Below, piece by piece: positions 23,826 through 47,288 of a stretch of DNA of 64,000 nucleotides. A model generated the notes under the pieces. That model searched no databases. It was not told where the DNA came from and saw only the letters and a list, made by a program, of their open reading frames with translations. This DNA comes from Blastococcus sp. LR1. GTDB taxonomy: Bacteria; Actinomycetota; Actinomycetes; Mycobacteriales; Geodermatophilaceae. The stretch lies in contig NZ_JAIUJY010000002.1 of the NCBI RefSeq assembly GCF_020166105.1, positions 310,001 to 374,000 of the forward strand. The letters run 5' to 3'. Positions within the stretch are counted from its first letter, which is position 1. Every line of letters starts with the position of its first letter. The position numbers and the translations under genes were made by a program.

Positions 23826-24596
23826 TCAGACCGGGAGGGGGCTCGTCACCCGATCGGAGACCACGTCCTCGACCGGGCCGGGCTCACCGGCGATCGGCCG
23901 GCCGTCGCGGAGCCGGCCGATCCGGCCCACGACGTAGACGACCGCCAGGCTCAGTGCCAGCAGCTCCCCGCCGTCCTCCATGGCGCCGAGGACGTCGCCC
24001 AGCCAGCTGTCCGCGACGAGCACGTGGACCTGGTCGAGCACCGCACCGAAGAACACGTAGACGGCGATCAGCGCGGTCATGCCCCAGCTCGCGCGGCGGT
24101 TCCAGGCGTCGCTGCGCAGGTGCAGCAGCACGGCGGCCAGCACCGGCACCGCGGCCAGGAGGCCCCAGACCAGCAGCTCGCCCCAGTCGTTGGCGCGCAG
24201 CCCCATGAACCCGTCGGAGGGGAACCAGAGGTGCGCCGCCAGCCGGTCGGCCAGCCACGCGCCCTTGGTCTCGTGCAGCCGCAGGGAGTCGTCGGCGAGG
24301 GCGGCGAGGAACAGCACGGAGTAGGCGGCCCACACCAGGTGCCGGGTCATCCGGGCGACGGCGAGCAGCAGCACCACGAGCGCGGCCTGCTGCGCGTAGC
24401 CGGCGTACTCCGAGACGCCGCGGTCGGTCTCCAGCAGCCACGGGTCGTTCAGGCTCGGACCGGAGAGCTCCAGCCGCACCAGCCCGATGACGACGAGCGC
24501 CAGGTCGACGGCCACCAGCGTGGCGAGCAGCCACCACGGGCCCAGCGACGCGATGCGTGCGCGCATGCTCGGCCGAGTCGTCGTCCCCGTGGTCAT
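23826..24596 (-). CDS. hypothetical multi-pass membrane protein
   Basis: The gene encodes 256 aa with about six hydrophobic helices: near residues 20-42, 65-85, 88-110, 150-170, 185-205 and 215-235. Charged loops include DDSLRLHETKGAW, which looks conserved. The start ATG at 24596 follows GAGGGGAG; an upstream in-frame ATG would add 18 disordered residues. No family is recognised. It is at the edge of the polysaccharide island and may or may not belong to it. The 123 bases before the next gene hold only short weak inverted repeats. Confidence 0.72.
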   Translation of the reverse strand: MTTGTTTRPSMRARIASLGPWWLLATLVAVDLALVVIGLVRLELSGPSLNDPWLLETDRGVSEYAGYAQQAALVVLLLAVARMTRHLVWAAYSVLFLAALADDSLRLHETKGAWLADRLAAHLWFPSDGFMGLRANDWGELLVWGLLAAVPVLAAVLLHLRSDAWNRRASWGMTALIAVYVFFGAVLDQVHVLVADSWLGDVLGAMEDGGELLALSLAVVYVVGRIGRLRDGRPIAGEPGPVEDVVSDRVTSPLPV

Positions 24597-24719
24597 GGCA
24601 CCGCTCCCCTCGCCGGCCCCGCTGCGGGCCCGGTCCTGCTCCCAGTGCACGCCCCCGCCTGCGGGAACTCAACGGCCGCGCGGGCGCGGTGCCTCCAAGG
24701 AGGGAGCCTCCAGCGGAGG

Positions 24720-26095: not shown

Positions 26096-26677
26096 TCACG
26101 CTGTGCGAGCGGAGCGCGGACCGACGACGTCGAGCAGCCCCGCCACCGCGTCGTCGATGAGGTCCATGACGCGCGCGACGACGTCGTCGGGCCGCTGGTA
26201 GGGGTCCTCGATGTCGTCCTCGCGGGAGCCGGCGCGCTGCGCCCTCAGCCGGGGCGCCTGGGCGACCACGGCGGCGAGCCGCTCGGCCGGCGGACCGGTC
26301 CCCGGCCCGGCCAGCGAGGTCAGCTCCGCGAACTCCCGCAGGGTGAAGGTGCGCCGCACGGCGGCCGGGAGCCGGGTGACCACCGCCGATCGCTGCGCCG
26401 CCGTCATGGTGAGCACCAGCCCGGCGGCACGCAGGGCCGGCGGCTGCAGCTGCCGGGCGGTGAAGCCGTCGACGTCGACGCCGCGCTCGGCCAGCAGCCG
26501 GGCCACGGGCGCAGCGACCGGCTGCCCGGCCAGGGCGGCCAGCCCCGCGCTGGACACCTCGACGCCGGGATCCCCGTCGAGCCCGGCGCGCAGCAGCAGC
26601 TCCGCGGCCGGGGAGCGGCAGATGTTGCCGGTGCACACCATCAGCACGGAGAACGGCGTCGCAGCCGGAACGGTCAT
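26096..26677 (-). CDS. low molecular weight protein-tyrosine phosphatase
   Basis: This 193-aa phosphatase has the P-loop VCTGNICRSP (CX5R) near the N-terminus and the general-acid region DIEDPYQRP. In Wzz/BY-kinase systems, this enzyme (Wzb type) dephosphorylates the C-terminal tyrosines of the kinase and helps set polymer length. Its ATG overlaps the kinase stop by four bases, which supports that pairing. It is cytosolic and slightly longer than the usual 150-160 aa. Confidence 0.92.
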   Translation of the reverse strand: MTVPAATPFSVLMVCTGNICRSPAAELLLRAGLDGDPGVEVSSAGLAALAGQPVAAPVARLLAERGVDVDGFTARQLQPPALRAAGLVLTMTAAQRSAVVTRLPAAVRRTFTLREFAELTSLAGPGTGPPAERLAAVVAQAPRLRAQRAGSREDDIEDPYQRPDDVVARVMDLIDDAVAGLLDVVGPRSARTA

Positions 26678-28143
26678 GCTCGGCCGACCGGCCGCGCGCC
26701 GGTCCGCGGCCGATCTCCGGCCCGGGGCGCCGGCACCTCGGCGGCCGGCTCCGCGGCGTCCGGCGTCCCACCGGCGTCCGCGACGTCCTCCCGCTGCCGG
26801 TAGGTGTAGGACTCCTCGTCCCGGCGGACCTGGTTGAGGACGACGCCGAGCACCCGGGCGGAGACCTGCGACAGGTCGCCGAGGCACTGGGTGAGCTGGG
26901 GCCTGCGGACCCGCTGGGTGTTGGCGACGACGACGACGCCGTCGACGATCCGGGAGAGCACGCTGGCGTCGGTCACCGGGAGCACCGGGGTGGTGTCCAG
27001 GACGACGTAGTCGTAGGCGGCGCGCAGGTCGGTGATCAGACGGCGCATCGCCGGGGAGCTGAGCAGCTCGGCCGGGTTCGGCGGCACCGCCCCCGCCGGC
27101 AGCACCTGCAGGCCGGAGGTGCCCCAGTCCTGCACCACGTCGTCGAACCCGGCGTGGCCGGCGAGCACCGTCGTCAGCCCCACGCCTCCCTCGATGCCGA
27201 GCACGTCGGCGACCGCGGGGCGGCGCAGGTCGGCGTCGATCAGCAGCACCTCGGCGCCGGTCTCGGCGAGGCTGACGGCCAGGTTGGCCGCGACCGTCGA
27301 CTTGCCCTCCGCCGACAGCGAGGAGGTGATGGCCAGGACCGAGGCGCCCTCGAGGGCCCCGGCGTCCTCGCCGGCCACCCGGAGGAACTCGAGGTTGGTG
27401 CGCAGCTGCCGGAAGCTCTCGGCCGGCGGGCTGTGCGGCGCGGTGGCGACCACCACCCGGCCGGACTCCGGGCCCCAGGACGGGACGCTGCCGATGGCCG
27501 GGAGCTCGGTCAGCTCCGCCAGCACGTCGGTGTCGCGGACGCGGGTGTCCAGCAGCTCCCACAGCCAGGCGAGGGCGAGACCGACCAGCAGGCCGGCGAA
27601 CAGCCCGAGGGCCAGGGTGAGCGGGACGTCGGGCGAGGCCCGGTCCGCCGGGACCTCCGCGGGCGACACGGTGGTGGCGGTGACGGTCGGGTCGCCCTGC
27701 TCGTCCTTGGGCGCGATGCGCTCCACGACCTCGGACAGGGACGCGACCACCGCGTCGGCGATGATGGCGCTGCCCTCGGCGGAGCCGTCGACCGCGGTCA
27801 CCTCCACGATGACGGTGCCGGTGGGGACCGTGGCCGACACCCGGGCGGCCAGCTGCCCCGTCGTCCCCGACAGGTCGAGGGACTCGATGACCGGCCGCAG
27901 CACCGCCGGCGTCGTCGCCAGCTGGGCGAAGGACTCCACCTGGTTCTGCGCGTAGGTCGACCCCTGCACCAGGTCGGAGGCGGAGCTGCCGGAGACCAGG
28001 GAGAAGAAGGCGGCCGAGCGGGCCTCGTAGGTGACCGGTGCGGTGGCCGTGGAGATCAGCCCGACGACCAGCCCCACGAGGGTCGCGGCGGCGACCGGGA
28101 TCCACCTCCGGCGGAGCACGTGCAACGGCCCTCGGGTATTCAC
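26674..28143 (-). CDS. Wzz-type copolymerase / BY-kinase
   Basis: The 489-aa inner-membrane protein has the Wzz layout in its N-terminal half (helices at about 12-31 and 174-196 around an extracytoplasmic domain) and then a cytosolic BY-kinase. The kinase has Walker A SLSAEGKST (Lys281), Walker A' LLIDADLRRP (300-309) and Walker B YVVLDTTP. Only two tyrosines (in ESYTYRQ) lie in the C-terminal tail, fewer than in classical Tyr clusters. It controls EPS chain length and export. GTG at 28143 follows GGAGAG. The matching phosphatase overlaps its stop. Confidence 0.93.
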   Translation of the reverse strand: MNTRGPLHVLRRRWIPVAAATLVGLVVGLISTATAPVTYEARSAAFFSLVSGSSASDLVQGSTYAQNQVESFAQLATTPAVLRPVIESLDLSGTTGQLAARVSATVPTGTVIVEVTAVDGSAEGSAIIADAVVASLSEVVERIAPKDEQGDPTVTATTVSPAEVPADRASPDVPLTLALGLFAGLLVGLALAWLWELLDTRVRDTDVLAELTELPAIGSVPSWGPESGRVVVATAPHSPPAESFRQLRTNLEFLRVAGEDAGALEGASVLAITSSLSAEGKSTVAANLAVSLAETGAEVLLIDADLRRPAVADVLGIEGGVGLTTVLAGHAGFDDVVQDWGTSGLQVLPAGAVPPNPAELLSSPAMRRLITDLRAAYDYVVLDTTPVLPVTDASVLSRIVDGVVVVANTQRVRRPQLTQCLGDLSQVSARVLGVVLNQVRRDEESYTYRQREDVADAGGTPDAAEPAAEVPAPRAGDRPRTGARPVGRA

Positions 28144-28389
28144 GGTTGCTCTCCATCCTGCGCACGCCCGGGCAGCCAGGTGCTCCCCCGCGGAACTCGA
28201 TCGACCCGCCCGATCGAGCCCGGGCACGGTCCTGCTCGTCGGGAAGTCTGCGGCGCGCGGGCCGCTCCCGGGCCCGGGCGCCGACCGGAGCCACCCCAAG
28301 GGGTAATGCCCGGGGCCGACTTCGGTCGCTCCGGGCGGGAAGGCCTGGAATGCGGGTCAAGATGACCGTCGGACCTGAGGGGGGTGGGC
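28144..28389. promoter_or_regulatory. divergent promoter region between the two Wzz genes
   Basis: This 246-base gap separates the minus-strand kinase and the plus-strand Wzz-Wzy gene, so it should hold promoters for both. CCACCCCAAGGGGTAATG at 28291-28308 contains an 8-base palindrome (CCCCAAGGGG core) and resembles motifs upstream of two other EPS operons. TCGATCGACCCGCCCGATCGA near 28197 is a further inverted repeat. No -35/-10 pair is convincing. Confidence 0.5.
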
Positions 28390-30756
28390 ATGGAACCGGC
28401 TGGTTACGTGCGGGCGGTCGTCGCCCGCTGGGTGTGGGCGGCTGCCGCCGGCACCTCCGGCGTGCTGCTCGGTGCCACCGTCGGCCTGCTCTCCCCCACC
28501 GCCTACCAGGCCGACGTCACGCTCTACGTGGACGCCGCCCTCATCGCCGAGGAGCAGGACCCCTCCTCGGCCGCCGAGGTGCGGACGACGGTGCTGCCCT
28601 CGGTCGCCCGGCTGACGACGTCGGCGACGGTGCTGGACGCGGTCGCCGACGGGCTCGACCTGGACGAGCCCGCCGCGTCGCTCGCCGCCGACCTCGACGT
28701 CGTCCGCGACAAGCGCGCCAGCGTGCTGCACCTCTCGGCCACCCGCGCCACGCCCGCGGAGGCCACCGACCTGGTCCTCGCCGTCGGCGAGGAGGTCAGC
28801 CGGCAGTCCGGGCTGCTCTTCGCCGGCACGGACGGGCCGATGCTGACCGTGACCGTGGTCGGGGACGCCGCCGGCGCTCTGCCCGCGTCCCGCTCGGCGT
28901 CCACGCTGGCCGCGCTCGGCCTGGTCGCCGGCGTCGGCGCCGCCGCCCTGGCCGCCGGCGTGGCCGAGCTGATCAGCCCGCGCGTCCGCGGGCGCGGCGG
29001 CGTCGCCCGGCTCACGACCGCGCCCGTCCTGGCGCTGCTCCCGCGGCACCTGTCCGCGCCCGACCGCCGTCCGGCGTGGGTAGCGCGGCTGCTCGGGACC
29101 GCGCCGCAGCGCGCCGACGAACTGGCCAGGGTGCGCATGGCCCTCGGTCCGGCCACGGCCGAGGACGCCGGGCGGCGGATCGCCGTCGTCGGCACCCGGG
29201 GCGTGCCCACCTCCCTCGCCGCCGACCTGGCCACACCGGGACTCGAGGTGGTCGCGGCGCCCGATCCGCAGGCGGTGCCGTCGACCGGGGTGGACGGCGT
29301 GCTCGTGGTCGTCGACGGACGCGGCACCGGCACCTCGGAGCTGCGCGCCACGCTGGACGCCGTCGACGCGGCCGGGCTCCCGCTGGCCGGCGTGGTCGTC
29401 GACGGCCTGCTCCCCCCGGGCGCCGGACGGCGGGCGCTGCTGCGCGCCGGCTCCCGCGCGGAGGCGACCTGGCTGGTGGACGGCCGGTCCCGCCCGTCCG
29501 GCGGCCGGGCGGCCCGGATCGTCCCGCGCGCGATCGCGGCGCTGGCCGTGGCCGCGGTCGGGTTCACCCAGCCGCTGCCGATGGGCCTGTCCGCCGGCTT
29601 CCTGGCCGCGGTCGCGCTGCTGCCGCTGTGGCTGCCGGTCATCCGCCGCTACCGCGGCCTGACGCTGCTGTTCGTGCTGGCCGGGATCGGGCTCGTCTCC
29701 GGCGTCCTGCTCGCCTGGGCCCACGCCGACGACCACGCGTTCGCGCTGCACGAGGCCGTCGTCCGCGGCACCGCCGTCCTCGGGGCCGTCGGCGGGATCG
29801 GACTGCTCGTCTGGGCCCGCGGGCTCCTCAGCGTGCCGGTCCTGGGCACCGTCTTCGGCCTGGCGATGCTGGCCACCGAGCTCTCGGAGATGTCCGGTCC
29901 CGAGAACCTCTGGAAGTTCCAGCTCTCCTCCCCGCTGATGGTGATGGGGATGGCGCTGGCCGCCCGCCGCGGGAATCCGCTGGTCACCGTGGGCGCCCTC
30001 GGCGTCCTGGGCCTGCTGAACATCGTCAACGACGCGCGCAGCGCCTTCGGCTTCTGCGCCGTGGCGGCCGCCCTCGTGCTCTGGCAGCAGCGCCCCGGCC
30101 GGGACCGCCCCGTGCGGCGGTCGCGGCAGCTGCTGATGCTGCCGCTCATCGGCGTGCTCGGCGCCGCCGCGTACTCCCTGATGACCCAGCTGATGCTCGC
30201 CGGAACGCTCGGCAGCGAGATCCAGCAGCGGACGGCGACGCAGATCGCGCAGTCGGGCTCGCTGCTGCTCGGCGGCCGGCCGGAGTGGACCGCCACCTGG
30301 GCGCTGATGCACGAGCACCCGTTCGGCTTCGGTCTGGGCATCGTGCCCAACAGCACCGACGTGCAGGTGGCCTCGCAGGGGCTCGAGGTCCTGAACATCC
30401 CGACCGCCGAGAACTACCTGCGCAACTACATGCTCGACGGCGGCGTGCAGCTGCACTCCATCGTCGCCGACCTGTGGTCCGGGATCGGACCGGCGGGCAT
30501 CCTGCTCGGCCTGGCGATGGGCGCGCTCGTGCTGCTGGGGCTGGCCGACCGGCTCGGCCGCCGCGAGGCCTCGGGTCTGGTGTGCCTGCTCGTCCCGATG
30601 GCGCTGTGGGCGCTGCCCTTCGGCCCGATGGCCAGCAACGTCGACACCCTCACCCTGGCCCTCGGCCTCCTGCTGGTGGCCCGCCGGCCGCGTGCCGCCG
30701 AGGATCCCGCGACCGGACCGACCGGCCCCGCGCGGTCCGCGCTGGTCGCCGCGTGA
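28390..30756 (+). CDS. Wzz - kinase-like - Wzy polymerase fusion
   Basis: The 788-aa protein appears to join three modules. Residues 1-200 have the Wzz topology, with helices at about 13-34 and 172-193 around an extracytoplasmic domain. Residues 200-365 resemble the cytosolic BY-kinase fold (RIAVVGTRG, VDGVLVVVDG, LAGVVVDGL), but the P-loop Lys-Ser/Thr is missing, so it should not be an active kinase. Residues 375-765 carry about ten helices and a large loop (HEHPFGFGLGIVPNS), like O-antigen polymerases/ligases. The ATG at 28390 follows GAGGGGGG. The combination would polymerise the repeat unit and set its length in one chain. The polymerase assignment rests on topology, not on a defined active site. 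Confidence 0.82.
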   Translation: MEPAGYVRAVVARWVWAAAAGTSGVLLGATVGLLSPTAYQADVTLYVDAALIAEEQDPSSAAEVRTTVLPSVARLTTSATVLDAVADGLDLDEPAASLAADLDVVRDKRASVLHLSATRATPAEATDLVLAVGEEVSRQSGLLFAGTDGPMLTVTVVGDAAGALPASRSASTLAALGLVAGVGAAALAAGVAELISPRVRGRGGVARLTTAPVLALLPRHLSAPDRRPAWVARLLGTAPQRADELARVRMALGPATAEDAGRRIAVVGTRGVPTSLAADLATPGLEVVAAPDPQAVPSTGVDGVLVVVDGRGTGTSELRATLDAVDAAGLPLAGVVVDGLLPPGAGRRALLRAGSRAEATWLVDGRSRPSGGRAARIVPRAIAALAVAAVGFTQPLPMGLSAGFLAAVALLPLWLPVIRRYRGLTLLFVLAGIGLVSGVLLAWAHADDHAFALHEAVVRGTAVLGAVGGIGLLVWARGLLSVPVLGTVFGLAMLATELSEMSGPENLWKFQLSSPLMVMGMALAARRGNPLVTVGALGVLGLLNIVNDARSAFGFCAVAAALVLWQQRPGRDRPVRRSRQLLMLPLIGVLGAAAYSLMTQLMLAGTLGSEIQQRTATQIAQSGSLLLGGRPEWTATWALMHEHPFGFGLGIVPNSTDVQVASQGLEVLNIPTAENYLRNYMLDGGVQLHSIVADLWSGIGPAGILLGLAMGALVLLGLADRLGRREASGLVCLLVPMALWALPFGPMASNVDTLTLALGLLLVARRPRAAEDPATGPTGPARSALVAA

Positions 30757-30848
30757 TCCGGCCCGGGGTCAAGGTCTCGCCCTCCGGCGTCGATGTCAGG
30801 GAGGACGGGCCGGTCGGCGCGCCCGTGTCCGCTGGAGATGGAGGAGCC

Positions 30849-33359
30849 GTGCAGTTCGTCGGCGCCCCGGCGCGCGTGGTGGTCGCCGTGCTCACCTACC
30901 GGCGCACGCACCTGCTCCCCCCGCTGCTGACCGAGCTGGTCGTCCAGGCAGGAACCGTCGAACCCCGGGCCGAGATCCTCGTCGTCGACAACGACCCCGC
31001 CGGCAGCGCCGCGGACGTCGTGCGCGGCTGGGCGGCCCGCGGCGTCCGGTACGTGCACGAGCCGCAGCCGGGCATCTCCGCGGCCCGGAACCGGGCCCTC
31101 ACCGAGGCCGGCGACGCCGCCGCGCTGGTCTTCTTCGACGACGACGAGCACCCCTCCCCCGACTGGTTGTCCCTCCTCGTCTCCGCCTGGCGCGACTGGG
31201 GCTGCGCCGCCGTGGCCGGACCGGTCGCGGGACGGCTTCCGGCGACCGTGGACCCGTGGGTCCTGGGCACCGGCGTCTTCGACCGACCGACCCGGCCGAC
31301 CGGCACCCGCGTCCGCGGCGCCGGGGCCGGCAACCTGCTGCTCGACCTCGACCGCGTGCGCGCGCTCGGGCTGCGCTTCGACGAGCGCCTGGGGCTGACC
31401 GGTGGCGAGGACACGCTGTTCACCCACGCCCTGGTGCACGCCGGGAACGAGATCCGCTGGTGCGACGAGGCCGAGGCCTCCGAGCACGTTCCCGCCGACC
31501 GCCTGACGCGGCGCTGGGTGATGCGGCGCTGCTTCCGGTCCGCCGGGTCGTGGAGCCGGGCCGAGGTCCAGCTGGCCCACGGCCGCGTCGGCCGCTGGCG
31601 GGTGCGGACCGCCGTCGTGACCAAGGCCGCCGTCCGGCTGCTCCAGGCGCTGCTGGCGCTCGCCGCCGCGACGGTGACCGGCCGGACCGCCGCCCGCGGC
31701 CGCGCCTGCGGCACGCTGGCCAGCTACGCGGGTCTCGTCGTCGGCGCCTTCGGCTGGACCGTCGGCGAGTACGCGCGACCGGCTGTGCTCCGACCGCGCC
31801 CCCGGCCGCAGCCCCGGAGCCCGACCGTGCCGCCTCGCGCTGACGAGGGCGGCGCCGCGGCCGACGTCCTCTCCTCCCCCGTTCCGCCCGCCACGCCTGC
31901 AACCGCCCCGGACGACGGGCTCGGCCGCTCCGCCGCCCGCGGCGCCGGGGTCACGCTGGCCGGCCAGGGTGCCCGCATCCTGCTGCAGCTGGCCTCGGTC
32001 ACCGTGCTGGCCCGGCTGCTGGACCCCAGCGACTACGGCCTGTTCGCCGTCGGGCTGGTCGTCGTCGGGATCGGCGAGGTGGTCCGCGACCTCGGGCTGA
32101 CGACCGCCGCGATCCGCGCTCCCTCGCTCACCCGCCGCCAGCGCGACGGGCTGTTCTGGCTCAACACCGCCGCCGGCGTCGTCCTCGCGCTGGCCGCGGT
32201 GGCGGCGGCCGAGCCGATCGCCGCCGTGTTCGGCGAGCCGCAGCTGGTCCCGGTCATCCGCGTCCTGGCGGCCACCTTCCTGCTCAACGGCGTGGTGGCG
32301 CAGTACCGGGCCGGGCTCACCCGCGACCTGCGCTTCGGCGCCCTGGCCGGCACCGACCTGGGCGCGCAGGTGCTCGCGCTGGGCACCGCCGTCGTCGCCG
32401 CCTCGCTGGGGGCCGGCTACTGGTCGCTGGTCGTCCAGCAGCTGGTGCAGGGCATCGTCGTCCTCGTCGGCGCCGTCTCGCTCGCCCGCTGGCTGCCCGG
32501 TCGGCCGCGCCGCGGCTCGGGGCTCCGCCCGTTCGTCCGGTTCGGCACCGGCGTCACCGGCACCCAGCTCGCCTACTACGTCGGCAACAACCTGGACAAC
32601 CTCGCGCTCGGCCTCACCGCCGGGCCCGCGGCGCTGGGCATCTACAACCGCGGCTACCAGCTGCTGATGAACCCGCTGAACCAGGTGCGCGGCCCGGCCA
32701 CCAACCTGGCCGTGCCCGTGCTGTCGCGGCTGCAGGACGACCCGGTGCGCTTCGGCGAGTACCTGCGCCGCGGCCAGCTGGCCCTCGGCTACACGCTGGT
32801 GGCGGCCATGGCGATCGGCGCGGGTGCGGCCGTGCCGCTCGTGGACCTGATGCTGGGCGCGCGCTGGGCCGAGGTGGCACCGGTGCTCGCGCTGCTGGCG
32901 GTCGCCGGCAGCGCGCAGACCCTCGCGTACGTCGGCAGCTGGGTGTACCTCTCCCGCGGCCTGGCCGGCGCACTGCTGCGCTACACGCTGCTCACGCTGG
33001 TGCTCAGCGCCGTCTGCATCGGCGTCGGCAGCCGCTGGGGCCTCCTGGGCGTGGCGGCCGGCTACGCCACGGCGGCCCTGCTCGAGTGGCCGCTGTCGCT
33101 GTGGTGGCTCTCGCGGGTCACCCCGGTGCCGGTCACCGCGCTGCTGACCGGGGCGCTGCGGATCACCGCGTGCGCCGTGCCCGCCGGCGCTGCCTCGTTC
33201 CTGGGCACCGAGCTGGTCGCCGGGGCCCCGTCGATCGTGCGCATCGGCGCCGGCGCCCTGGCCGGGCTCGCCGTCTACGCGGCGGCCGCCGTGCTGCCGC
33301 CGGTCCGCGCGGACCTGCGCGGAGTGGCCGGGTGGGCCCGGTCCATGGCCGGCCGCTGA
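30849..33359 (+). CDS. GT2 glycosyltransferase - Wzx flippase fusion
   Basis: A single open frame of 836 aa. Residues 1-240 are a GT-A family 2 transferase (VVAVLTYRR, VVDNDP, FFDDDEHPSPDW with the DxD metal site, LTGGEDTLF). A helical stretch and a Pro/Ala-rich linker follow (about 312-358). Residues 359-836 form a 12- to 14-helix polysaccharide flippase (SAARGAGVTLAGQGARI opening, YNRGYQLLMNPLNQVRG). There is no stop between the parts. GTG at 30849 follows GGAGGAG; GTG at 30753, overlapping the previous stop, is an in-frame alternative. It would add a sugar and flip the lipid-linked unit. Confidence 0.83.
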   Translation: MQFVGAPARVVVAVLTYRRTHLLPPLLTELVVQAGTVEPRAEILVVDNDPAGSAADVVRGWAARGVRYVHEPQPGISAARNRALTEAGDAAALVFFDDDEHPSPDWLSLLVSAWRDWGCAAVAGPVAGRLPATVDPWVLGTGVFDRPTRPTGTRVRGAGAGNLLLDLDRVRALGLRFDERLGLTGGEDTLFTHALVHAGNEIRWCDEAEASEHVPADRLTRRWVMRRCFRSAGSWSRAEVQLAHGRVGRWRVRTAVVTKAAVRLLQALLALAAATVTGRTAARGRACGTLASYAGLVVGAFGWTVGEYARPAVLRPRPRPQPRSPTVPPRADEGGAAADVLSSPVPPATPATAPDDGLGRSAARGAGVTLAGQGARILLQLASVTVLARLLDPSDYGLFAVGLVVVGIGEVVRDLGLTTAAIRAPSLTRRQRDGLFWLNTAAGVVLALAAVAAAEPIAAVFGEPQLVPVIRVLAATFLLNGVVAQYRAGLTRDLRFGALAGTDLGAQVLALGTAVVAASLGAGYWSLVVQQLVQGIVVLVGAVSLARWLPGRPRRGSGLRPFVRFGTGVTGTQLAYYVGNNLDNLALGLTAGPAALGIYNRGYQLLMNPLNQVRGPATNLAVPVLSRLQDDPVRFGEYLRRGQLALGYTLVAAMAIGAGAAVPLVDLMLGARWAEVAPVLALLAVAGSAQTLAYVGSWVYLSRGLAGALLRYTLLTLVLSAVCIGVGSRWGLLGVAAGYATAALLEWPLSLWWLSRVTPVPVTALLTGALRITACAVPAGAASFLGTELVAGAPSIVRIGAGALAGLAVYAAAAVLPPVRADLRGVAGWARSMAGR

Positions 33360-34127: not shown

Positions 34128-35125
34128 CGGGCTCCTCCCCACGACAGCCGCCAGCGGCGGCCGTCCCGCGCATACTCCTGGAAGACCACGCCCCAGGCGG
34201 CGCCGACCATGCCGGCCCCACGGCAGAGAGCCCGCAGGCCCCGCGCCCGGTGCCGGTCGGAGCGCACCAGCCCGCCCCAGGCCCACCGGACTCCACCGCC
34301 GGTCACCCGGAGCAGACCCCGGGTGGCCCAGCGCAGCCTCAGGACCGAACGCGCCGCGGGTCCGGCAGCGAGCCGCAGCTCGGTGAGGACGGCGGCGTTG
34401 CCGTGGCTCCACGCCCGGGTCAGCACCCAGGATCGGGTCATCCGCGAGCGGGGCACGCAGTCGATCGCGACGGACTCGTCGCACCACAGGATGCGGGCGC
34501 CCGCCCGCGTCAGCGCCCGGCTGAACAGCGAGTCCTCGCCGCCGCCGAGCCCCAGGTCCGTGGCGAAGCGGACCCCGAGCGCGCGGACCTGCACCAGGTC
34601 CAGCAGCAGGTTGCTGGTGGCGGCGACGTCGACGGCGGTGCCGGTGGGCAGGCGGCGGCGGACGAAGAAGTCCCCGGCGCGGATCCACGGGTCCAGCTCG
34701 CCGGTGTACTCGGCCACGACCCGGCCGGCGACGGCGGCCGGGAGGCCGGCCTCCCAGGTGGCCAGCAAGGAGCTGAGCCAGCCCTCCTCCGGCCGCTCGT
34801 CGTCGTCGATGAAGGCCAGCAGCGCGCTACCGGCGGCCTCGTCCATCGCGCGGTTGCGGACCGCGGCGATCCCCGGCGTCGGCTCGGCGACGTAGCGCAG
34901 CTCCGGTGCGGCGAACTCGGCGACGACGGCCGCGCCGCTGCCGTCCGGGTCGTTGTCGACCACCAGCACCTCGGCGTCGTACCGGTCGCCCGTTCCGCGG
35001 GCCTGGACCAGCAGCAGCGGCAGCGCGGCCCGCAGGTGGTCGGGACGGCGGAAGGTCGGCACGGCGACGGTGAGGCGCACGGTGCCGAGGGATGCGTCGG
35101 CCGACGCCGGCCGAACTGCGGTCAC
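34124..35125 (-). CDS. family 2 glycosyltransferase
   Basis: The 333-aa GT-A transferase has VAVPTFRRPDHL, VVDNDPDGSG, FIDDDERPEEGW (DxD metal site) and LGGGEDSLFSRAL. It is similar in layout to the GT2 half of the GT2-flippase fusion (the TGGEDTLF motif recurs), so the two may be paralogues. The GTG start overlaps the upstream GT2-GT4 stop as GTGA. It is probably membrane-associated and acts on the lipid-linked repeat unit; the sugar donor is not predictable. Confidence 0.9.
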   Translation of the reverse strand: MTAVRPASADASLGTVRLTVAVPTFRRPDHLRAALPLLLVQARGTGDRYDAEVLVVDNDPDGSGAAVVAEFAAPELRYVAEPTPGIAAVRNRAMDEAAGSALLAFIDDDERPEEGWLSSLLATWEAGLPAAVAGRVVAEYTGELDPWIRAGDFFVRRRLPTGTAVDVAATSNLLLDLVQVRALGVRFATDLGLGGGEDSLFSRALTRAGARILWCDESVAIDCVPRSRMTRSWVLTRAWSHGNAAVLTELRLAAGPAARSVLRLRWATRGLLRVTGGGVRWAWGGLVRSDRHRARGLRALCRGAGMVGAAWGVVFQEYARDGRRWRLSWGGAR

Positions 35126-37251
35126 CGTCGTCCGCCCGCGAGCGACCCGGCCTGCCGGGAGAGCCCGACGGCCTTGATCAGCCGCGCGGCGAACCGGGCG
35201 ACGGCGTGCCGCTCCCGCGCTCCGACCGCGTCGCTCGCGGCGACCTCGCGGACCCGCGGCCAGTCGGCGACGAGCTCCTGCACCGCATCGGCCCAGCGGG
35301 CGGCGTCGCCGGGCGCAGCCACCCGCACCGAGCCGAAGCCCTCGGTGGCCTCGCGCAGCCCCCGCAGGTCGCTCACGACCAGCGGGCGGGCGGCGAGCAC
35401 CGCCTCGACGGCGGCGTTGCCGAAGGACTCGTCCAGCACCGACGGCACCAGGACGACGTCGGCCTGCGCCATCACCGGCCACACGTCGGGGACGAACCCG
35501 GTGTACTCCACCCGGTCGGTCAGCCCCGCCGTGCGCACCGTGTCGCGCAGCTCGGCCTCGAACCACTCGTAGCCGGCGAAGACCGACCCGGCGAGGATGA
35601 GCCGGGCATCCACGCCGCGGTCCCGCAGCTCGCGCAGCACCTCGACGGCGACGTCGGGCCCCTTGCGCGGGGAGAGCCGGCCGAGGAAGAGCAGCCGCAG
35701 CGGGCCGTCCAGCCGCTCCCGGGCGGGGACGACGTCGGCCGGGCCGGGCACGGGATTGACGACGACGGTGGTCCGGCCGGCGAGCGCCGGCACCAACCCG
35801 GTGAGGACCTCGGCGGTGAACCGGCTGTTGGCCACCACCGTGTGCGCCGCCAGCAGCGGCCGCAGCAGCACCCGGTGCAGCGCCGCCGGCCCTGGCCACT
35901 CCGCCTCGTGCACGTGGCAGACGACCCGCCGGCCGGCCAGGCGGGCGAGGAGGAGCCAGGACGGCAGGGTCGTGGTGTTCACGTGCACGACGTCGGCCCG
36001 CCGCAGCAGGGCCAGCGCCGGCAGCAGCCCGCGCAGCGCGTCGCCGACCAGCCGCAGCGCGCCGGTGGGCCGGAGCACCGACTTGCGCAGCACCGGCATG
36101 GCGACCAGCACGACCCGCGCGCCGCGGCGCTCGAGCTCGGCCACCAGCGGGCCGGGACCGGGCAGCGCCACTGTCACCTCGCCGTCCGCGGCCAGCGCGG
36201 CCACCGACTCGAGCAGGACCCGGTCGGAGCCGTAGAGCTCGGCGCCGGGGTGCACCACGAGCACCGAGGGACGCGCCGGGGTCCGGCGCGGTCCCCGCAC
36301 CAGCGCGGGCAGCGCGGCGGCGAGCCCGCCCAGCGAGCCGCGCACCGCGGCGCGGAGCACCGAGGGGGTGTGCAGCAGCTGGCGGCGGCCGCCGCGCAGC
36401 AGGATCTCCCAGCTGACCGCCGGGGTGGTGAGCACCCAGCGGAGCAGGCTGCGCCGGTCGAGGTTCCGGGCGGCGAAGACCAGCCGGTTGCGGCAGTTGT
36501 AGCGGTAGTAGAGCGCCGACTTGGCCCGGCCCCGACGACCCTCGTCGTGGGTGCCGCCCTCGTCGTGCACCGCGACCAGGTCCTCGCGCAGGATCACCGA
36601 GCCGCCGGCCGCGACGGCCCGGAAGCCGAGATCGACGTCCTCCCAGTAGAGGAAGTACTCCTCGTCGTAGCCGCCGATGCGGCTGAACAGCTCGTCGTGC
36701 ACGACGACGCAGGCGCCGCACAACCAGTCACCGGGGTCGGACGTCTGCGGCCCCTCGCCGTCGGGACGGCGCCGGATCCGGCCGTCGCGCAGGTCGGTCC
36801 GGGCGACGCGGAACACGACCTCGCCCTCGGAGTCGACCAGCTGGGGGCTGATCAGCGCCATGGGCTCGCGCAGGCTGTGCGCGCGGAGCTCGGCGACGAC
36901 CGACGGCGTGATGACCGCGTCCGGGTTGAGGAACAGGAAGGTGCGGCAGCCGAGCTCGCGAGCCGCGGCCACTCCGGCGTTGCTGGCCGCACCGAAACCG
37001 CGGTTGTCCGGCATCGCGACCACGGTCCAGCCGTGCTCGACGCCCAGCAGCTCGACGGCGTCCCGGTTCTCCGGCGTCGAGAAGTTGTCCACCACGACGA
37101 CGCGGACGTGTGCGCCGGACAGCTGCGCCGGGGCCAGGTTCTCGCGGAGCAGCTGCGCGCTGCCGTAGGAGACGACGACGACGCCCAGCGGCGGTCCGTC
37201 GTCCGGAGCCGTGTCGGCCGGTCCGCCGGGGACGAGCACGGTCATGGTCAC
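35122..37251 (-). CDS. bifunctional GT2 - GT4 glycosyltransferase
   Basis: A 709-aa polypeptide with two transferases. Residues 22-290 form a rhamnosyltransferase-like GT2 (VVVVSYGS, VVDNFSTP, PDNRGFGAASNAG, LFLNPDA at 107-112, LYWEDVDLGFR). Residues 328-700 form a GT4 GT-B enzyme (VLVVHPGAELYGSDRVL, LLFLGRLSPRKGPDV, VPSVLDESFGNAAVEA). A basic linker at about 318-327 joins them. GTG at 37251 is eight bases after GGAG; ATG at 37245 is the alternative. It would add two successive sugars. It heads the operon with the next GT2 and the deacetylase. Confidence 0.88.
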   Translation of the reverse strand: MTMTVLVPGGPADTAPDDGPPLGVVVVSYGSAQLLRENLAPAQLSGAHVRVVVVDNFSTPENRDAVELLGVEHGWTVVAMPDNRGFGAASNAGVAAARELGCRTFLFLNPDAVITPSVVAELRAHSLREPMALISPQLVDSEGEVVFRVARTDLRDGRIRRRPDGEGPQTSDPGDWLCGACVVVHDELFSRIGGYDEEYFLYWEDVDLGFRAVAAGGSVILREDLVAVHDEGGTHDEGRRGRAKSALYYRYNCRNRLVFAARNLDRRSLLRWVLTTPAVSWEILLRGGRRQLLHTPSVLRAAVRGSLGGLAAALPALVRGPRRTPARPSVLVVHPGAELYGSDRVLLESVAALAADGEVTVALPGPGPLVAELERRGARVVLVAMPVLRKSVLRPTGALRLVGDALRGLLPALALLRRADVVHVNTTTLPSWLLLARLAGRRVVCHVHEAEWPGPAALHRVLLRPLLAAHTVVANSRFTAEVLTGLVPALAGRTTVVVNPVPGPADVVPARERLDGPLRLLFLGRLSPRKGPDVAVEVLRELRDRGVDARLILAGSVFAGYEWFEAELRDTVRTAGLTDRVEYTGFVPDVWPVMAQADVVLVPSVLDESFGNAAVEAVLAARPLVVSDLRGLREATEGFGSVRVAAPGDAARWADAVQELVADWPRVREVAASDAVGARERHAVARFAARLIKAVGLSRQAGSLAGGRR

Positions 37252-37537: not shown

Positions 37538-40500
37538 TCAGGGCGCGGTGCCCGGAGCGCCGACCCACACGTTGTCCACGCGCATGGTCTGCGCGCGGCC
37601 GGCTGTCGAGGACTCGTACAGCGCGATCCGGAGGTTCCCGGCCCGCTGCAGCACCGCCGTGGTGTCGGTGGCGCTGACCTGCCAGTCCTTCGGCTCCTCG
37701 GTGCCGGCGACCCACGCCTTGGCGCGGAGCTCCGTCGTCCCGGTGCCCGCCGTCTCCATCCGGACCGTCACCACCGTGCCGGGGGTGTAGGTGCCCGGCA
37801 GGCGGTAGGTGCCCACGACGGTCTCCGTCGCGTCGACGACCGAGACCAGGCTCAGCGTCATCGAACCGGTGGAGCTGAACCGGAGCTGCGCGTCGTACCG
37901 CGTGGTGCCGACGGTGCGGGTGCCCAGCTTGACGTAGCTGCCGCCACCGGCCGCGGCCTGCTCCAGCGCCACGTCGGCCTGCAGCGCGACGTCACCGAGC
38001 GCGATCGCCAGCTGCGCATCCCGGGTGGACCCCGCGTTCGAGGTCACCCGGCCCGTCCCGTCGACGACCGCAGGCGCGCCCGCGGCGGGGGTGATCCAGT
38101 TCCCGCCCCGCTCGGCGGTGCCCCAGCCGGCGGCCACGATCCGCTCGAAGGTGTCCCGGACGAAGGCCGGGTCGACCGGCTGCGTCGGGGTCTCCGGCTG
38201 CTCCGGGGTCTCCGGCTCCTCCGGGGTCTCCGGCTGCGTCGGCACCTCGGGCTGCGTCGGCACCTCGGGCTGCGTCGGGGTCTCCGGCTGCGTCGGGGTC
38301 TCCGGCTCCTCCGGGGTCTCCGGCTGCGTCGGCACCTCGGGCTGCGTCGGCGGCACGACCGTGCCGGGCTGGGTCACCCGGAGGTCGTCCAGACGCACCG
38401 TCTGGGTCGCCGTCGCCGAGCCGGAGTTGTAGAGGTCGAAGCGCAGCGCTCCGGCCTTCTGCAGCGCGGCCGTGGTGTCGGTCGCCTCCGTCTGCCAACC
38501 GGCCGGCTCGGCCGATCCCGCGGCCCACACCTTGGCCCGCAGGGCGGTCGTGCCGCTGCCCTCGGTCTGGAAGCGGACCTTCAGGACCGCGCCCGGGGTG
38601 TAGGTGCCCGGCAGCCGGTAGGAGCCCAGGACGCTCTCCGTGCCGGCGACCACCTTGGTGAGGCTCGCGGTCACCGAACCGGTGGCGCTGAACCGCAGCT
38701 GGGTCGTGTACCGGTTGGCCGAGTCGATCGCCCGGCCGGCGACCGTCACGTAGGCGCCACCGCCGGTGGGGGCCTTCTCGACCACCACGTCGGCCTGCAC
38801 GTCGACGTCCCCGGCCGAGATCGGCAGGGTCGCCGCGCTCGTGCCACCCGCGGCCGCGCTGAGGCGACCCGACCCGTCGGTCACCCGGGCGTTCGCCGAG
38901 GAACCGGTCGTCGTCCAGGCCCCACCGAGCTCGGCGGTCCCCCAGCCTCCGGAGACCTCGCGCCCGAAGGTGTCGAGGGCCACGGCGGTCGGCTGGGTCG
39001 GCTCCGGCTGGGTCACCGGCGCGGTGACGGTCACCGGGAGGGTCACCGTGCCCGTGGCGCCGGCGGCATCGGTCACCGTCAGCGTCACCGGGTAGGTGCC
39101 GGCGGCGGCGAAGGTGTGCGCCGCCGTCGCCCCGGTCGCGGTCTGCCCGTTGCCGAAGTTCCAGGCGTAGGAGGCCAGGGGGCCTTCGGCGTCGGTCGAC
39201 GACGAGCCGTCCACGGAGACCGCGAGGCCGCTCACCTGGGAGGTGAACGCCGCCGTCGGCGCCGTGTTGACCGGCGGGGCGGTCGCCCCGAGGTCGATGA
39301 CCTGCAGGTCGTCCAGCCGCGCGGTCTGCGTGGTCGTCGCCGTTCCGGAGTTGTAGACGTCGAAGCGGAACGCCCCGGCCTTCTGGAGCGCAGCCGTGGT
39401 GTCGGTCGCCTCCGCCTGCCAGCCGGACGGCTCGGCCGACCCGGCCGCCCACACCTTGGCCCGCAGCGCGGTCGTGCCACTGCCCTCGGCCTCGAAGCGG
39501 ACCTTCAGGACGCTGCCCGCGGTGTAGGTGCCCGGCAGCCGGTAGGAGCCCAGGACGGTCTCCGTGCCGGCGACCACCTTGGTGAGGCTCGCGGTCACCG
39601 AACCGGTGGCGCTGAACCGCAGCTGGGTCGTGTACCGGTTGGCCGAGTCGATCCCCCGGCCGGCGACGGACACGTAGGTGCCACCGCCGGTGGCAGCCTT
39701 CGCGGCCACCACGTCGGCCTGCACCGAGAGGTCCCGCACCGAGATCGGCAGGGTCGCCGCGCTCGTGCCGCCCGGGGCCGCGCTGAGCCGGCCCGAGCCG
39801 GCGGTCACCGCGGCGTCCGCCGAGGCGCCGGTGGTGGTCCAGGAGCCACCGAGCTCGGCGTTCCCCCAGCCTTCGGTGGTCTCGCGCCCGAAGGTGTCGC
39901 GGGCCATCTCACCGAACTCCGGCTTCTCCGGCGGCGCGGTCACCGTCACGTCCGTGGTGGTCGTGGCGGTCGCACCGGCGGAGTCGGTCACCGTGAGGGT
40001 GACGGGGTAGGTCCCGGCCGCGGCGAACGTGTGCGACGCCTTCGCCCCGGTCGCGGTGGCGCCGTTCCCGAACTTCCACACGTAGGAGGCCAGCGGCCCC
40101 TCGGCGTCGGTCGAGGACGACCCGTCCACGGTCAGCGCCAGCCCGTCCACCGCGGAGGTGAACGCCGCCTTCGGAGCAGCGTTCGGCGCGAGGCCGGTGC
40201 TGCCGAAGCGGTGGTGCTCGGCCAGCTCCTGCGCCGTCAGGGCGCGGGAGTAGACGGCGACCTCGTCGATCGCGCCGGCGAACCAGTCCAGACCGGTGAC
40301 CCAGCTGGTGTCGCCGCCGATCCGCCAGTACCCGTTGTAGGCCTGGGCGCTGGTGACGTCCGGACGGGTACCGACGACCTGTCCGTCGACGGCGAGCGTC
40401 AGCCCCTGCGGGCTCAGCGTGCCGGCCACGTGGTGCCAGCGACCGTCGTTGTAGGTGGCCGTGCTCTGCACGGTCGACGACGCACCGTTGTACACACCGA

Positions 40501-42939: not shown

Positions 42940-43611
42940 TCAGCCGGCCGCGCCGCTGAACACCAGGAACGGCGTTCCCGCGCGGTACCCGACGGTGAGG
43001 GTGACCAGGTCCCGCTCACCCGTGGGCACGGAGAAGAAGTAGACGCCCTCGGCGGTGCCCCCGGGCGCCAGCGTGCCGCCGAAGGGCACCCGGGTCGGGT
43101 CGTCCAGCGGTGACGCCGGGGTGGCATCGGCACCGGAGCTCATGGTCACGCTGACCAGACCGAGGTCGACCGGCGCTCCCGTCCCGTTGGTGAGGCGCAC
43201 CGTCGCGCGCAGTGCCGGTCCGGCGATGTTGCCCGCACCTTCCGCGGTCCCGCGCACGCCGTCGAGCGACACCACTCGGGCGGTGACGCCGTCGGCCCCC
43301 ACGGCCTCCTGGTCGAAGGCCACCGGTGCCAGGCCCGGCGGCAGCTGCGCGGGGTCCGCGGGCGGTGCCGGCACCTCCGACGCGGCCGGCGGTGCCGGAA
43401 GAGGCGCCGGAGCAGGGGTCGAGGGCGCGGCGGAGCTGCTCGTCGCGGCCGGGGTGGTCGTTCCGGCCGCAGCCGTGTCGCTGCCGTCCTTCCCGGTGCC
43501 GCTGAGGACCAGCCCGAGGACGACCGCCGCCAGCACGAGCACCGCGGCGACGCCGCCGATCACCTGGCGCCGTCGCGTCATCCACGACCGGACGCCGTCG
43601 GGAGCACTCAT
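42940..43611 (-). CDS. membrane-anchored DUF4352-like protein
   Basis: The 223-aa protein has one N-terminal transmembrane helix (about 17-38), a Thr/Ser/Ala/Pro-rich linker (about 45-95) and an extracytoplasmic beta-rich domain (about 100-223). The domain contains LRATVRLTNGTGAPVDLG and LAPGGTAEGVYFFSVP. This pattern resembles DUF4352/telomeric-repeat-factor-like immunoglobulin folds in Gram-positive lipoproteins. The ATG overlaps the CDP-alcohol transferase stop. Its function is unknown; it may handle the polymer outside the membrane. Confidence 0.8.
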   Translation of the reverse strand: MSAPDGVRSWMTRRRQVIGGVAAVLVLAAVVLGLVLSGTGKDGSDTAAAGTTTPAATSSSAAPSTPAPAPLPAPPAASEVPAPPADPAQLPPGLAPVAFDQEAVGADGVTARVVSLDGVRGTAEGAGNIAGPALRATVRLTNGTGAPVDLGLVSVTMSSGADATPASPLDDPTRVPFGGTLAPGGTAEGVYFFSVPTGERDLVTLTVGYRAGTPFLVFSGAAG

Positions 43612-44357
43612 CGCTGCAGCCTGCCCATCTCTCGGAACCATCGGAACGAGGCGAGCGCGAGGAATCCCGCCGCCGCCAGGAAGAGCGCGGTGTACGCCGG
43701 CACGAACAGCGCCGGCGCCCCGTACAGGACGAACAGGCAGGCCAGCAGGCCGTAGTCGGTCGGCAGCGTCAGGAACGAGCGCGCGATGCTGGCCCGCTCG
43801 GCCGTCGGCATGGCCCGGGTGCGGGCACCGTGCTGCGCCCGCAGGGCCTCGTTGAGCATCGTGGCGAAGTAGGTGACGGCGTCGACCACGCAGAAGCCCA
43901 GCGGAACCAGCAGCCAGGCGTCGTCCACCACGTCCGCGCGGTACCAGCCGATGAGCACCGCCAGGTGCAGGCTGGAGGCCTTGACCGCGTCGACCATGTG
44001 GTCCAGCCACTCGCCCGAGGGGGAGCCACCGCCCCGGAGCCGGGCCACCTGGCCGTCGGCGGAGTCGAGGGCGTAGCCCAGCACGAGCAGGACGGCGACC
44101 CCCACGCCCGTGCCGGCGGTCGGCCGGCCGAGGGCCAGCAGAGCGATGCCTGCAGCGGTGCAGACGGCGCTGACCGCGGTGACCGCATTGGGAGTGAGCC
44201 CGGCGCGGTAGGCCAGGGCCGCGAGGACCCGGCCCAGTGGCCGGTTGACGAACCGCGAGTACGCCGGCGCGCCCTGCGCACCCTTCTGCGCCGAGGACAG
44301 CCGCTGGACGGTCGTCGAGAAGGACTCCCGCTCGACCGGCCGATCGAGCAGGGTCAC
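43608..44357 (-). CDS. CDP-alcohol phosphatidyltransferase family protein
   Basis: This 249-aa integral membrane enzyme carries the complete family signature, starting DSADGQVAR and ending GEWLDHMVD (DGxxARx8Gx3Dx3D). It transfers a phospho-alcohol from a CDP-linked donor to an acceptor alcohol. About six helices are visible. In this setting, between a glycosyltransferase and a surface protein and with a CTP:polyol-phosphate transferase elsewhere in the island, a phosphopolyol or phospholipid head-group role in EPS is plausible. The GTG start overlaps the upstream GT stop as GTGA. Confidence 0.9.
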   Translation of the reverse strand: MTLLDRPVERESFSTTVQRLSSAQKGAQGAPAYSRFVNRPLGRVLAALAYRAGLTPNAVTAVSAVCTAAGIALLALGRPTAGTGVGVAVLLVLGYALDSADGQVARLRGGGSPSGEWLDHMVDAVKASSLHLAVLIGWYRADVVDDAWLLVPLGFCVVDAVTYFATMLNEALRAQHGARTRAMPTAERASIARSFLTLPTDYGLLACLFVLYGAPALFVPAYTALFLAAAGFLALASFRWFREMGRLQR

Positions 44358-45607: not shown

Positions 45608-45725
45608 CGAGGACACCTCATGGTGGTTTCGGTCGGCTCCTGGACGGTCGACCTTGAGCCCGCGTCACTTCTCACGGAGCCCTGCTTCCCGACGGTAGGG
45701 CTCCGCAATGCGAAACGGACCCCGC

Positions 45726-45782: not shown

Positions 45783-47288
45783 TCAGTACGCGCCGGAGCT
45801 GGAGAGGACGGCTCGCCCGGTCTTCCAGAGAATGAGGACGTCGAGCGCCAGCGACCAGTTCTCCACGTAGCGGAGGTCCAGCCGGACGGACTCCTCCCAC
45901 GACAGGTCGCTGCGGCCCGAGATCTGCCACAACCCGGTCAGCCCCGGCTTGACCAGCAGTCGCCGGCTGACCGAGGTGTCGTACCGCGCGACCTCGGCCG
46001 GCAGGGGCGGGCGCGGCCCGACCAGCGACATGGAGCCGCCGAGGACGTTGAGCAGCTGCGGCAGCTCGTCGAGGGACAGCCGGCGGAGCACCCGGCCGAC
46101 GGGTGTGACCCGCGGGTCGACGCGCATCTTGAAGAGGAGGCCGTCGGAGATGTTCTCCGCCCGGAGGGTGTCCAGCTGGCGGTCGGCGTCGACGACCATG
46201 CTGCGGAACTTCAGCATGGTGAAGGTGTTGCCGTTGAGCCCGACCCGCTCCTGCCGGTAGAGCACGGGTCCGGCGCTGGTGAGCCGCACGGCGGCGGCGA
46301 TGCCCAGCAGCACCGGGGAGAGGACGAGCAGCGCGAGCCCGGCCGCCACGCGGTCGACGCCGCCCTTGACGACGCGCCGCCACCCCTCGAAGCACGGCTG
46401 CTCGATCGACAGCAGGGGCAGCCCCTCGAAGGGGCGGATGTGCAGCCGCGGCCCGGCCACCTCGATGAGTCCCGGCGCCACGAGCAGCTCGATGCCGGTG
46501 CCCTCCAGCTGCCAGGAGAGCTGACGCAGGTACTGCGCCGCGGTCTCGCTGGCGGAGGTCACGGCGATGGTGTCCGCGTCGTGCGACTCGGCGAGCAGCA
46601 GCACGTCGTCCAGACCACCGACGGGCACGCCGGCGCGCGAGGCGACCCGCACCCGGTCGGCCGGGGTCACGGCCGCGGCGACGACCTCGAGGCCGGCGTA
46701 GCGCTCGCGCCGCAGCCGGGTCACCAGCTCCAGCACCGCGCCACCACGTCCGACGACGACGACCTTCTTCGTGCACTGCCCCTGCGCGCGGAGTCCGCGC
46801 AGCCGGGTGCGGGCGGCGTAGCGGCCGAGCAGCGTCGCGCCGGTGAGAGCCGGGATGGCCACGACGACGAGCGCGCGGCTGAGGTCCAGCGCCGCGACGT
46901 AGGACAGGAAGCTGACCAGCGCCAGGAGGAGGAAACCGGCGCGGGCGACCCGGCGGTACTCGTCGCTCCCGGTGCCGTAGGCCCGTTCGGCGTAGGCGCC
47001 GGTGGATCCCAGGAGGACCGGCCAGGCCACCACGATTGCCATCGAGGCCCAGAGGAGCGCGGACCGGGGGCTGATCTCGGCGGTGCGGCTCAGCAGGACG
47101 GCGGCGCCGGCAGCGGCGGCCATCAGCGTCTCCGCGACGACCAGCGCAACGGTGTAGGACCGGACCCACGAGGGCGCGGAGCGACGCACGAGCGGACGCG
47201 GACGCGGCAGCGGCGACGCGGTCGACCCACCGGGAGCCCCCGGCGTGATCACCGCTCCCGCGCTCGCGTGCTGGCGATCCAGAAGCAT
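45783..47288 (-). CDS. polyprenyl glycosylphosphotransferase (initiating sugar transferase)
   Basis: The 501-aa enzyme is of the WbaP/CpsE type. The N-terminal half has four to five membrane helices, a CoA-binding/NAD-like domain follows (KKVVVVGRGG at about 175), and the C-terminal catalytic domain contains KGGVDRVAAG, YRQERVGLNG, MLKFRSM, RRLSLDELPQLLNVL and SLVGPRPPLP. It transfers a sugar-1-phosphate to undecaprenyl phosphate and so starts repeat-unit synthesis. The 200-base upstream gap contains CTATCGGGTGAAA (minus strand, near 47450). The first sugar is not predictable. Confidence 0.95.
   Translation of the reverse strand: MLLDRQHASAGAVITPGAPGGSTASPLPRPRPLVRRSAPSWVRSYTVALVVAETLMAAAAGAAVLLSRTAEISPRSALLWASMAIVVAWPVLLGSTGAYAERAYGTGSDEYRRVARAGFLLLALVSFLSYVAALDLSRALVVVAIPALTGATLLGRYAARTRLRGLRAQGQCTKKVVVVGRGGAVLELVTRLRRERYAGLEVVAAAVTPADRVRVASRAGVPVGGLDDVLLLAESHDADTIAVTSASETAAQYLRQLSWQLEGTGIELLVAPGLIEVAGPRLHIRPFEGLPLLSIEQPCFEGWRRVVKGGVDRVAAGLALLVLSPVLLGIAAAVRLTSAGPVLYRQERVGLNGNTFTMLKFRSMVVDADRQLDTLRAENISDGLLFKMRVDPRVTPVGRVLRRLSLDELPQLLNVLGGSMSLVGPRPPLPAEVARYDTSVSRRLLVKPGLTGLWQISGRSDLSWEESVRLDLRYVENWSLALDVLILWKTGRAVLSSSGAY

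Follow-up and report, generated by a model that had tools for sequence, protein, structure and literature searches.

A window of 64,000 nucleotides from Blastococcus sp. LR1 (contig NZ_JAIUJY010000002.1, positions 310,001 to 374,000, in a 4.02-Mb genome) contains an exopolysaccharide (EPS) cluster in which one forward-strand gene at 28390..30756 encodes a degenerate Wzc, a polysaccharide co-polymerase of class 2a (PCP-2a), joined to a Wzy-type polymerase part. The open reading frame (ORF) spans 28384-30756 and comprises 790 aa from a GTG start, but the likely start is the ATG at 28390, which is preceded by a purine-rich stretch, agrees with the starts of the relatives and yields a protein of about 788 aa; residues are numbered here from the alternative GTG. 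The PCP part (28390..28983) consists of transmembrane (TM) helix 1 (residues 16-36), an extracytoplasmic α/β domain and TM2 (residues 172-197). It is followed by a cytosolic part related to bacterial tyrosine kinases (BY-kinases) that lacks Walker A and A' motifs and a tyrosine cluster (28984..29493, residues 201-370), and then by the Wzy/WaaL-type part with about 12 TM helices (29494..30693, residues 371-770). Within the latter lies a large loop (30199..30483, residues 606-700), extracytoplasmic by helix count, with the invariant residues R616, R632 (in the motif GRPEW) and H691. All of these lie on the forward strand. The two helices that a preliminary description of the sequence had placed at 13-34 and 172-193, counted from 28390, correspond to residues 15-36 and 174-195 and match those of the structure model, and the three-part order in one chain that it had proposed is confirmed by computation.

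The PCP part matches the Pfam Wzz family at residues 9-88 with E=0.0036 and 18.0 bits, below the curated cut-off (gathering score) of 25.5, and this match recurs at E<=1 in nine of 12 aligned members, the window included. NCBIfam returns weak chain-length-determinant matches at the N-terminus together with a chance match further on. In the structure model the two TM helices flank an extracytoplasmic domain of the Wzc/Wzz fold, so that the PCP fold is kept, the cytosolic domain has a BY-kinase fold, and residues 3-370 align end to end with the PCP-2a protein Wzc of E. coli (7nhr), which has the same order of TM1, extracytoplasmic domain, TM2 and cytosolic BY-kinase domain. Unlike Wzc, the fused protein has neither Walker motifs nor a tyrosine tail, its kinase domain is shortened and a polymerase part follows it. 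The preliminary description spoke of a Wzz and a kinase-like part; the folds were rightly recognised, but because hhalign matches the N-terminal part over its whole length to the Wzc next door (E=7e-35) it is better called a degenerate Wzc.

The EX2RX2R motif is a BY-kinase motif; it is not intact in the fused proteins, where R243 and R249 are invariant instead (13/13). The loss of the kinase motifs is complete, with Walker A and Walker A' absent from all 13 fused proteins, which bears out the earlier suggestion of a BY-kinase-like domain without a P-loop. In the protein of the window, residues 196-375 contain no P-loop, no lysine and no tyrosine; each of the 13 proteins has zero or one tyrosine in this stretch, and a tyrosine-rich C-terminal tail is missing. 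Judged by model and sequence, the domain would thus qualify as an EcpK-like BY pseudokinase, defined as the fold without Walker motifs and without a tyrosine tail (PMC12004946). EcpK of Myxococcus, HfsB of Caulobacter and the SMc01795-type PCP-2 proteins likewise have a BY-kinase fold without catalytic motifs or tyrosine tail that serves a PCP-2. However, EcpK and HfsB are separate proteins, and the single-chain pseudokinase PCP-2 proteins (SMc01795 and others) are not described as joined to a Wzy in the passages of that paper (PMC12004946).

The C-terminal half matches Pfam Wzy_C (PF04932) at residues 542-708 with E=4.3e-5 and 23.8 bits, below the curated cut-off of 31.7, and the match recurs at E<=1 in five of the 12 aligned members. 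A Wzy_C search of the Blastococcus genome at E<=0.1 lists two other genes and not the fused one, and the polymerase part has no match among Protein Data Bank (PDB) sequences up to E=10. In the model it has a WaaL-like fold of about 12 TM-length helices, rather than the ten or so first counted, with a long outer loop near the C-terminus. An unrelated transporter had been named as the finding that would overturn the Wzy assignment; Foldseek did return weak rows that are mostly transporters, some of them RodA-type proteins (best E 0.26), but structural re-alignment ranked WaaL first and well ahead. Since solved structures of such polymerases were still lacking at the time of PMC10920833, the ligase is the expected nearest fold, and the Wzy-like character of the C-terminus is upheld. 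R616, R632 and H691 are each invariant in the 13 fused sequences, and two arginines and one histidine in an outer loop are the pattern described for Wzy/WaaL proteins (PMC10920833); the agreement is at the level of sequence. The fused part thus resembles WaaL (7tpg) and the Wzy_C polymerases in its helices, outer loop and Arg/Arg/His pattern, but those proteins normally stand alone, whereas this one is joined to a Wzc and scores under the Pfam cut-off.

Divergent from the fused gene, across an intergenic region at 28147..28383 that is bounded by an estimated wzc start, lies the candidate partner, a Wzc comprising a PCP and a BY-kinase with EGKST and DADLRRP motifs (26674..28146, reverse strand). 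The complete Wzz/BY-kinase reported next door is therefore real, with intact kinase motifs. A Wzb-type low-molecular-weight tyrosine phosphatase follows on the same strand (26096..26647; Pfam LMWPc E=1.2e-21). The fused copies are co-inherited with both proteins, a divergent Wzc and then Wzb being present in all 11 fused loci that were inspected or have enough flank (the window and 10 named loci), with TagD and Mfd beyond Wzb in most. EGKST and DADLRRP are invariant in the 10 neighbouring Wzc proteins checked out of these 11 (all except that of L034), and the neighbouring Wzc proteins themselves have zero to two tyrosines in their last 60 residues. Among 17 loci of fusion-free genomes of the family several keep a similar TagD-Wzb-Wzc side, some with added genes, and in several the gene divergent from wzc encodes an unfused product some 410-446 aa long. 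Nine candidate polymerase ORFs of these loci were compared with Pfam: five contain Wzy_C (L067, L068, L069, L075 and L080), those of L064, L076 and L079 have no match, and L073 4423-5805 is an FrhB-type protein. Profile comparison did not support the idea that the stand-alone Wzy proteins at this place are sequence homologues of the fused part; only Pfam family and place agree. Elsewhere in this genome another EPS locus (G000:C2, about 695000-699000) repeats the arrangement without a fusion: a gene of Wzz/Wzc type lies divergent from an unfused gene of Wzy_C type, whose match scores 26.6 bits and stays below the cut-off.

The distribution of the fusion was surveyed in 112 genomes of the family Geodermatophilaceae (match at E<=0.001, up to nine candidates scored per genome). 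Matches occur in 42: 13 genomes, the window's own included, carry the whole order unbroken, 28 match in the co-polymerase part only and one (G026) has a stand-alone polymerase. The preliminary description had allowed for an assembly artefact with homologues uniformly split into two genes; an artefact or a frameshift is ruled out because the order is unbroken in 13 genomes. A scan of genome contigs gave 11 named fused loci, all among the same 13, in Geodermatophilus, Blastococcus, Modestobacter and one metagenome-assembled genome; one of the 13 copies (L008) has its N-terminus cut by a contig end. In each tree (unrooted) all fused copies lie on one side of a branch with support of 100/99 or better, and a single fusion event would be the simplest reading of these sequences. 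The G026 gene first appeared to be a broken fusion with four stops, but it is a stand-alone frame of 433 aa related to the fused polymerase part (L063, G026:C30, 1593-2894, forward strand) that adjoins a gene like those of glycosyltransferase family 2 (GT2) on an 11.7-kb contig of 61% GC without a Wzc match, and it was probably acquired.

Outside the family no fusion was seen in samples of the order (200 genomes, 14 matched, 10 of them outside the family; up to eight candidates per genome), the class (394 genomes, 14 matched, own included; up to four candidates) or the phylum (296 genomes searched with the full protein, 12 matched, own included; up to three candidates, which makes this negative weak). 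The in-frame upstream sequence of 18 loci outside the family, a check that left out G172, G251 and G706, contains no fused PCP part, and no relative was found in viral contigs. In the order and class samples, polymerase-part relatives are stand-alone proteins wherever this was checked.

The reading favoured here, with a probability of roughly 0.55, is that the fused protein is the Wzy polymerase of a Wzx/Wzy-dependent EPS cluster and carries a catalytically dead Wzc protomer at its N-terminus as a built-in docking subunit. The preliminary description had suggested a dedicated polymerase-length regulator whose dead kinase may sense the active one; this role is conjectural, and the protein may act only as the cluster's polymerase. 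In the WzzE:WzyE pair co-polymerase and polymerase also form one complex, a Wzz octamer enclosing one Wzy in its TM cavity (8:1), and Wzc is proposed by analogy to act through phosphorylation-driven assembly and disassembly (PMC10030265). That pair consists of two proteins, whereas here there is one chain plus a second, stand-alone PCP next door (PMC10030265). The PCP part could insert into the ring of the neighbouring Wzc and hold the polymerase at or in that ring, much as in the 8:1 model (PMC10030265). The polymerase would then follow the assembly and disassembly of the Wzc ring, while the dead subunit itself would escape phosphorylation. One fused chain occupying a seat in a ring of intact Wzc would recruit the polymerase at a fixed ratio. 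The topology predicted by helix count would suit this, with TM2 ending in the cytosol, the pseudokinase next and the polymerase starting there.

Pairwise distances over nine genomes (36 mutually dependent pairs) are consistent with such a partnership. For the fused PCP part the correlation is 0.79 with the Wzc kinase and 0.70 with the Wzc PCP, close to the 0.77 between Wzb and the Wzc kinase. The values for TagD and GT2b of the same locus are 0.35 and 0.49 against the Wzc kinase and 0.06 and 0.33 against the Wzc PCP. With Mfd, TagD and GT2b distances removed, the fused PCP part still correlates with the Wzc PCP at 0.64 and the pseudokinase with the Wzc kinase at 0.70.

Other observations limit the case for the docking-subunit reading. 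Wzb and the fused PCP part are correlated too, at 0.76 (0.69 after the removal), and block transfer of wzb, wzc and the fusion would give the same correlations, so that the co-variation is support and no proof. Furthermore, residues 1-370 are less conserved than the Wzy part (mean pairwise identities of 0.40 and 0.38 versus 0.54), the outer loop being the highest of the four stretches compared at 0.65. Over all 13 copies four columns are invariant in the PCP, six in the pseudokinase and 69 in the Wzy part; the two N-terminal counts are too low because they include the cut copy L008, and rise to 12 and nine in the 11 complete copies. The lower conservation suggests weaker constraint and keeps alive the view that the Wzc part is left over from a read-through fusion of wzc and wzy and does no more than anchor the polymerase, which alone matters. 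This explanation, with which the loss of the kinase motifs and the tandem wzc-wzy pairs of other actinomycetes (L109-L112) also agree, nevertheless appears unlikely, as the Wzc part stays in frame and free of stops across lineages whose polymerase parts fall to about 45% identity, the core of its fold can still be recognised and R243 and R249 never vary.

A self-sufficient fusion, which would form homo-oligomers through its own PCP part with one polymerase per protomer and leave the neighbouring Wzc to another step, is a little less probable again. The kept PCP fold, the 1:1 ratio fixed by the covalent link and the proposal that pseudokinase PCPs work without an active kinase (PMC12004946) speak for it, but the model of one polymerase in the cavity (PMC10030265) would have no space for eight such domains, and a Wzc accompanies the fusion in all 11 loci whose flanks are long enough, and co-varies with it. 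We regard as more doubtful still the stronger form, a complete one-chain machine that rings by itself with several polymerases per co-polymerase ring and needs no tyrosine phosphorylation; if true, it would contradict the general 8:1 picture. That the C-terminal part is a WaaL-like ligase moving finished polymer to the cell wall is improbable, for although WaaL is the nearest solved fold and the Wzy_C family spans both activities, no second Wzy_C was found among 12 cluster proteins scanned with Pfam (those at 37538-42706, 42940-43374 and 44354-45616 lying outside the scan) and a Wzy_C gene occupies the same place in several fusion-free genomes.

Wzy and Wzc are usually separate proteins and the manner of their joint assembly is debated. 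Pseudokinase co-polymerases of the PCP-2 type are already described, both stand-alone (EcpK) and single-chain (PMC12004946), and what is new here is that such a co-polymerase is covalently joined to a polymerase, which gives BY pseudokinases a new setting. The preliminary description knew of no protein with this order, and no report of a Wzz/Wzc-Wzy fusion was found among the titles and abstract starts listed in searches of open-access papers, a scope that excludes most subscription papers; such a fusion goes unmentioned in passages of PMC12004946, PMC12004945, PMC10920833, PMC12502699 and PMC13390465, and PMC12220298 lacks every term sought. The fusion bears on the question of how chain-length regulator and polymerase meet, and in what ratio. 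A Wzy review points to the need for further data on stoichiometric interplay within the pathway (PMC12004945), and a direct estimate of 8:1 comes from one enterobacterial pair (PMC10030265). With the two covalently joined by nature, their pairing is fixed, structural studies gain a construct and the co-polymerase:polymerase ratio becomes testable; the predictions are rings that mix the fusion with intact Wzc, and a fused subunit that does not respond to phosphorylation.

As to origin, a Wzc lies within about 1.6 kb of the polymerase relative in five of 10 loci of the order sample (divergent in L082, L083 and L087, on the same strand in L081 and L090), and wzc is directly upstream on the same strand in four of 10 loci of the class sample (L109-L112, with flanks of at most 1.5 kb). 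The fusion could plausibly have arisen from a tandem pair of the kind seen in these other actinomycetes. The fused clade is joined in the trees by the polymerases of L109, L110, L112 and L117 (90/87) but not by that of L111; the trees, being unrooted, fit this origin only weakly. A fusion in reverse order was observed in one genome only (L073, G058:C12, 8512-11394, forward strand), where a frame of 961 aa joins a multi-TM N-terminal part to a Wzc with GEGKS. Pfam names the Wzc part only, and the N-terminal part is probably Wzy-like, given the weak Wzy_C match (E 0.007) of its 60% relative in G102. It has four relatives in the family, which in G102 and G110 are separate genes beside wzc.

The gene that follows the fusion (30771..33359, forward strand) joins a GT2 glycosyltransferase (Pfam Glycos_transf_2, 38-157) to a Wzx flippase (Polysacc_synt_3, 412-704) in one frame. 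L033 and similar relatives encode the GT2 in an ORF of its own and then have a second ORF that matches Wzx in size (judged by size, not by profile); the single frame is either a recent fusion or a frame error. The initiating sugar-phosphate transferase at 45783..47189 on the reverse strand (Pfam Bac_transf E=7.3e-66) likely belongs to the same EPS cluster, and a 274-aa protein at 23829-24650 has no Pfam match. GT2 and GT4 glycosyltransferases form one protein of 709 aa at 35122-37251 (reverse strand), which corresponds to single ORFs of 690-770 aa in eight named loci and to two ORFs in L039 and L040. Also beside the EPS genes, 37538-42706 (reverse strand) encodes a large protein (about 1720 aa) in which stretches that by eye resemble PKD and LamG domains recur alongside P/E/T-rich linkers, and similar ORFs occur in most relatives.
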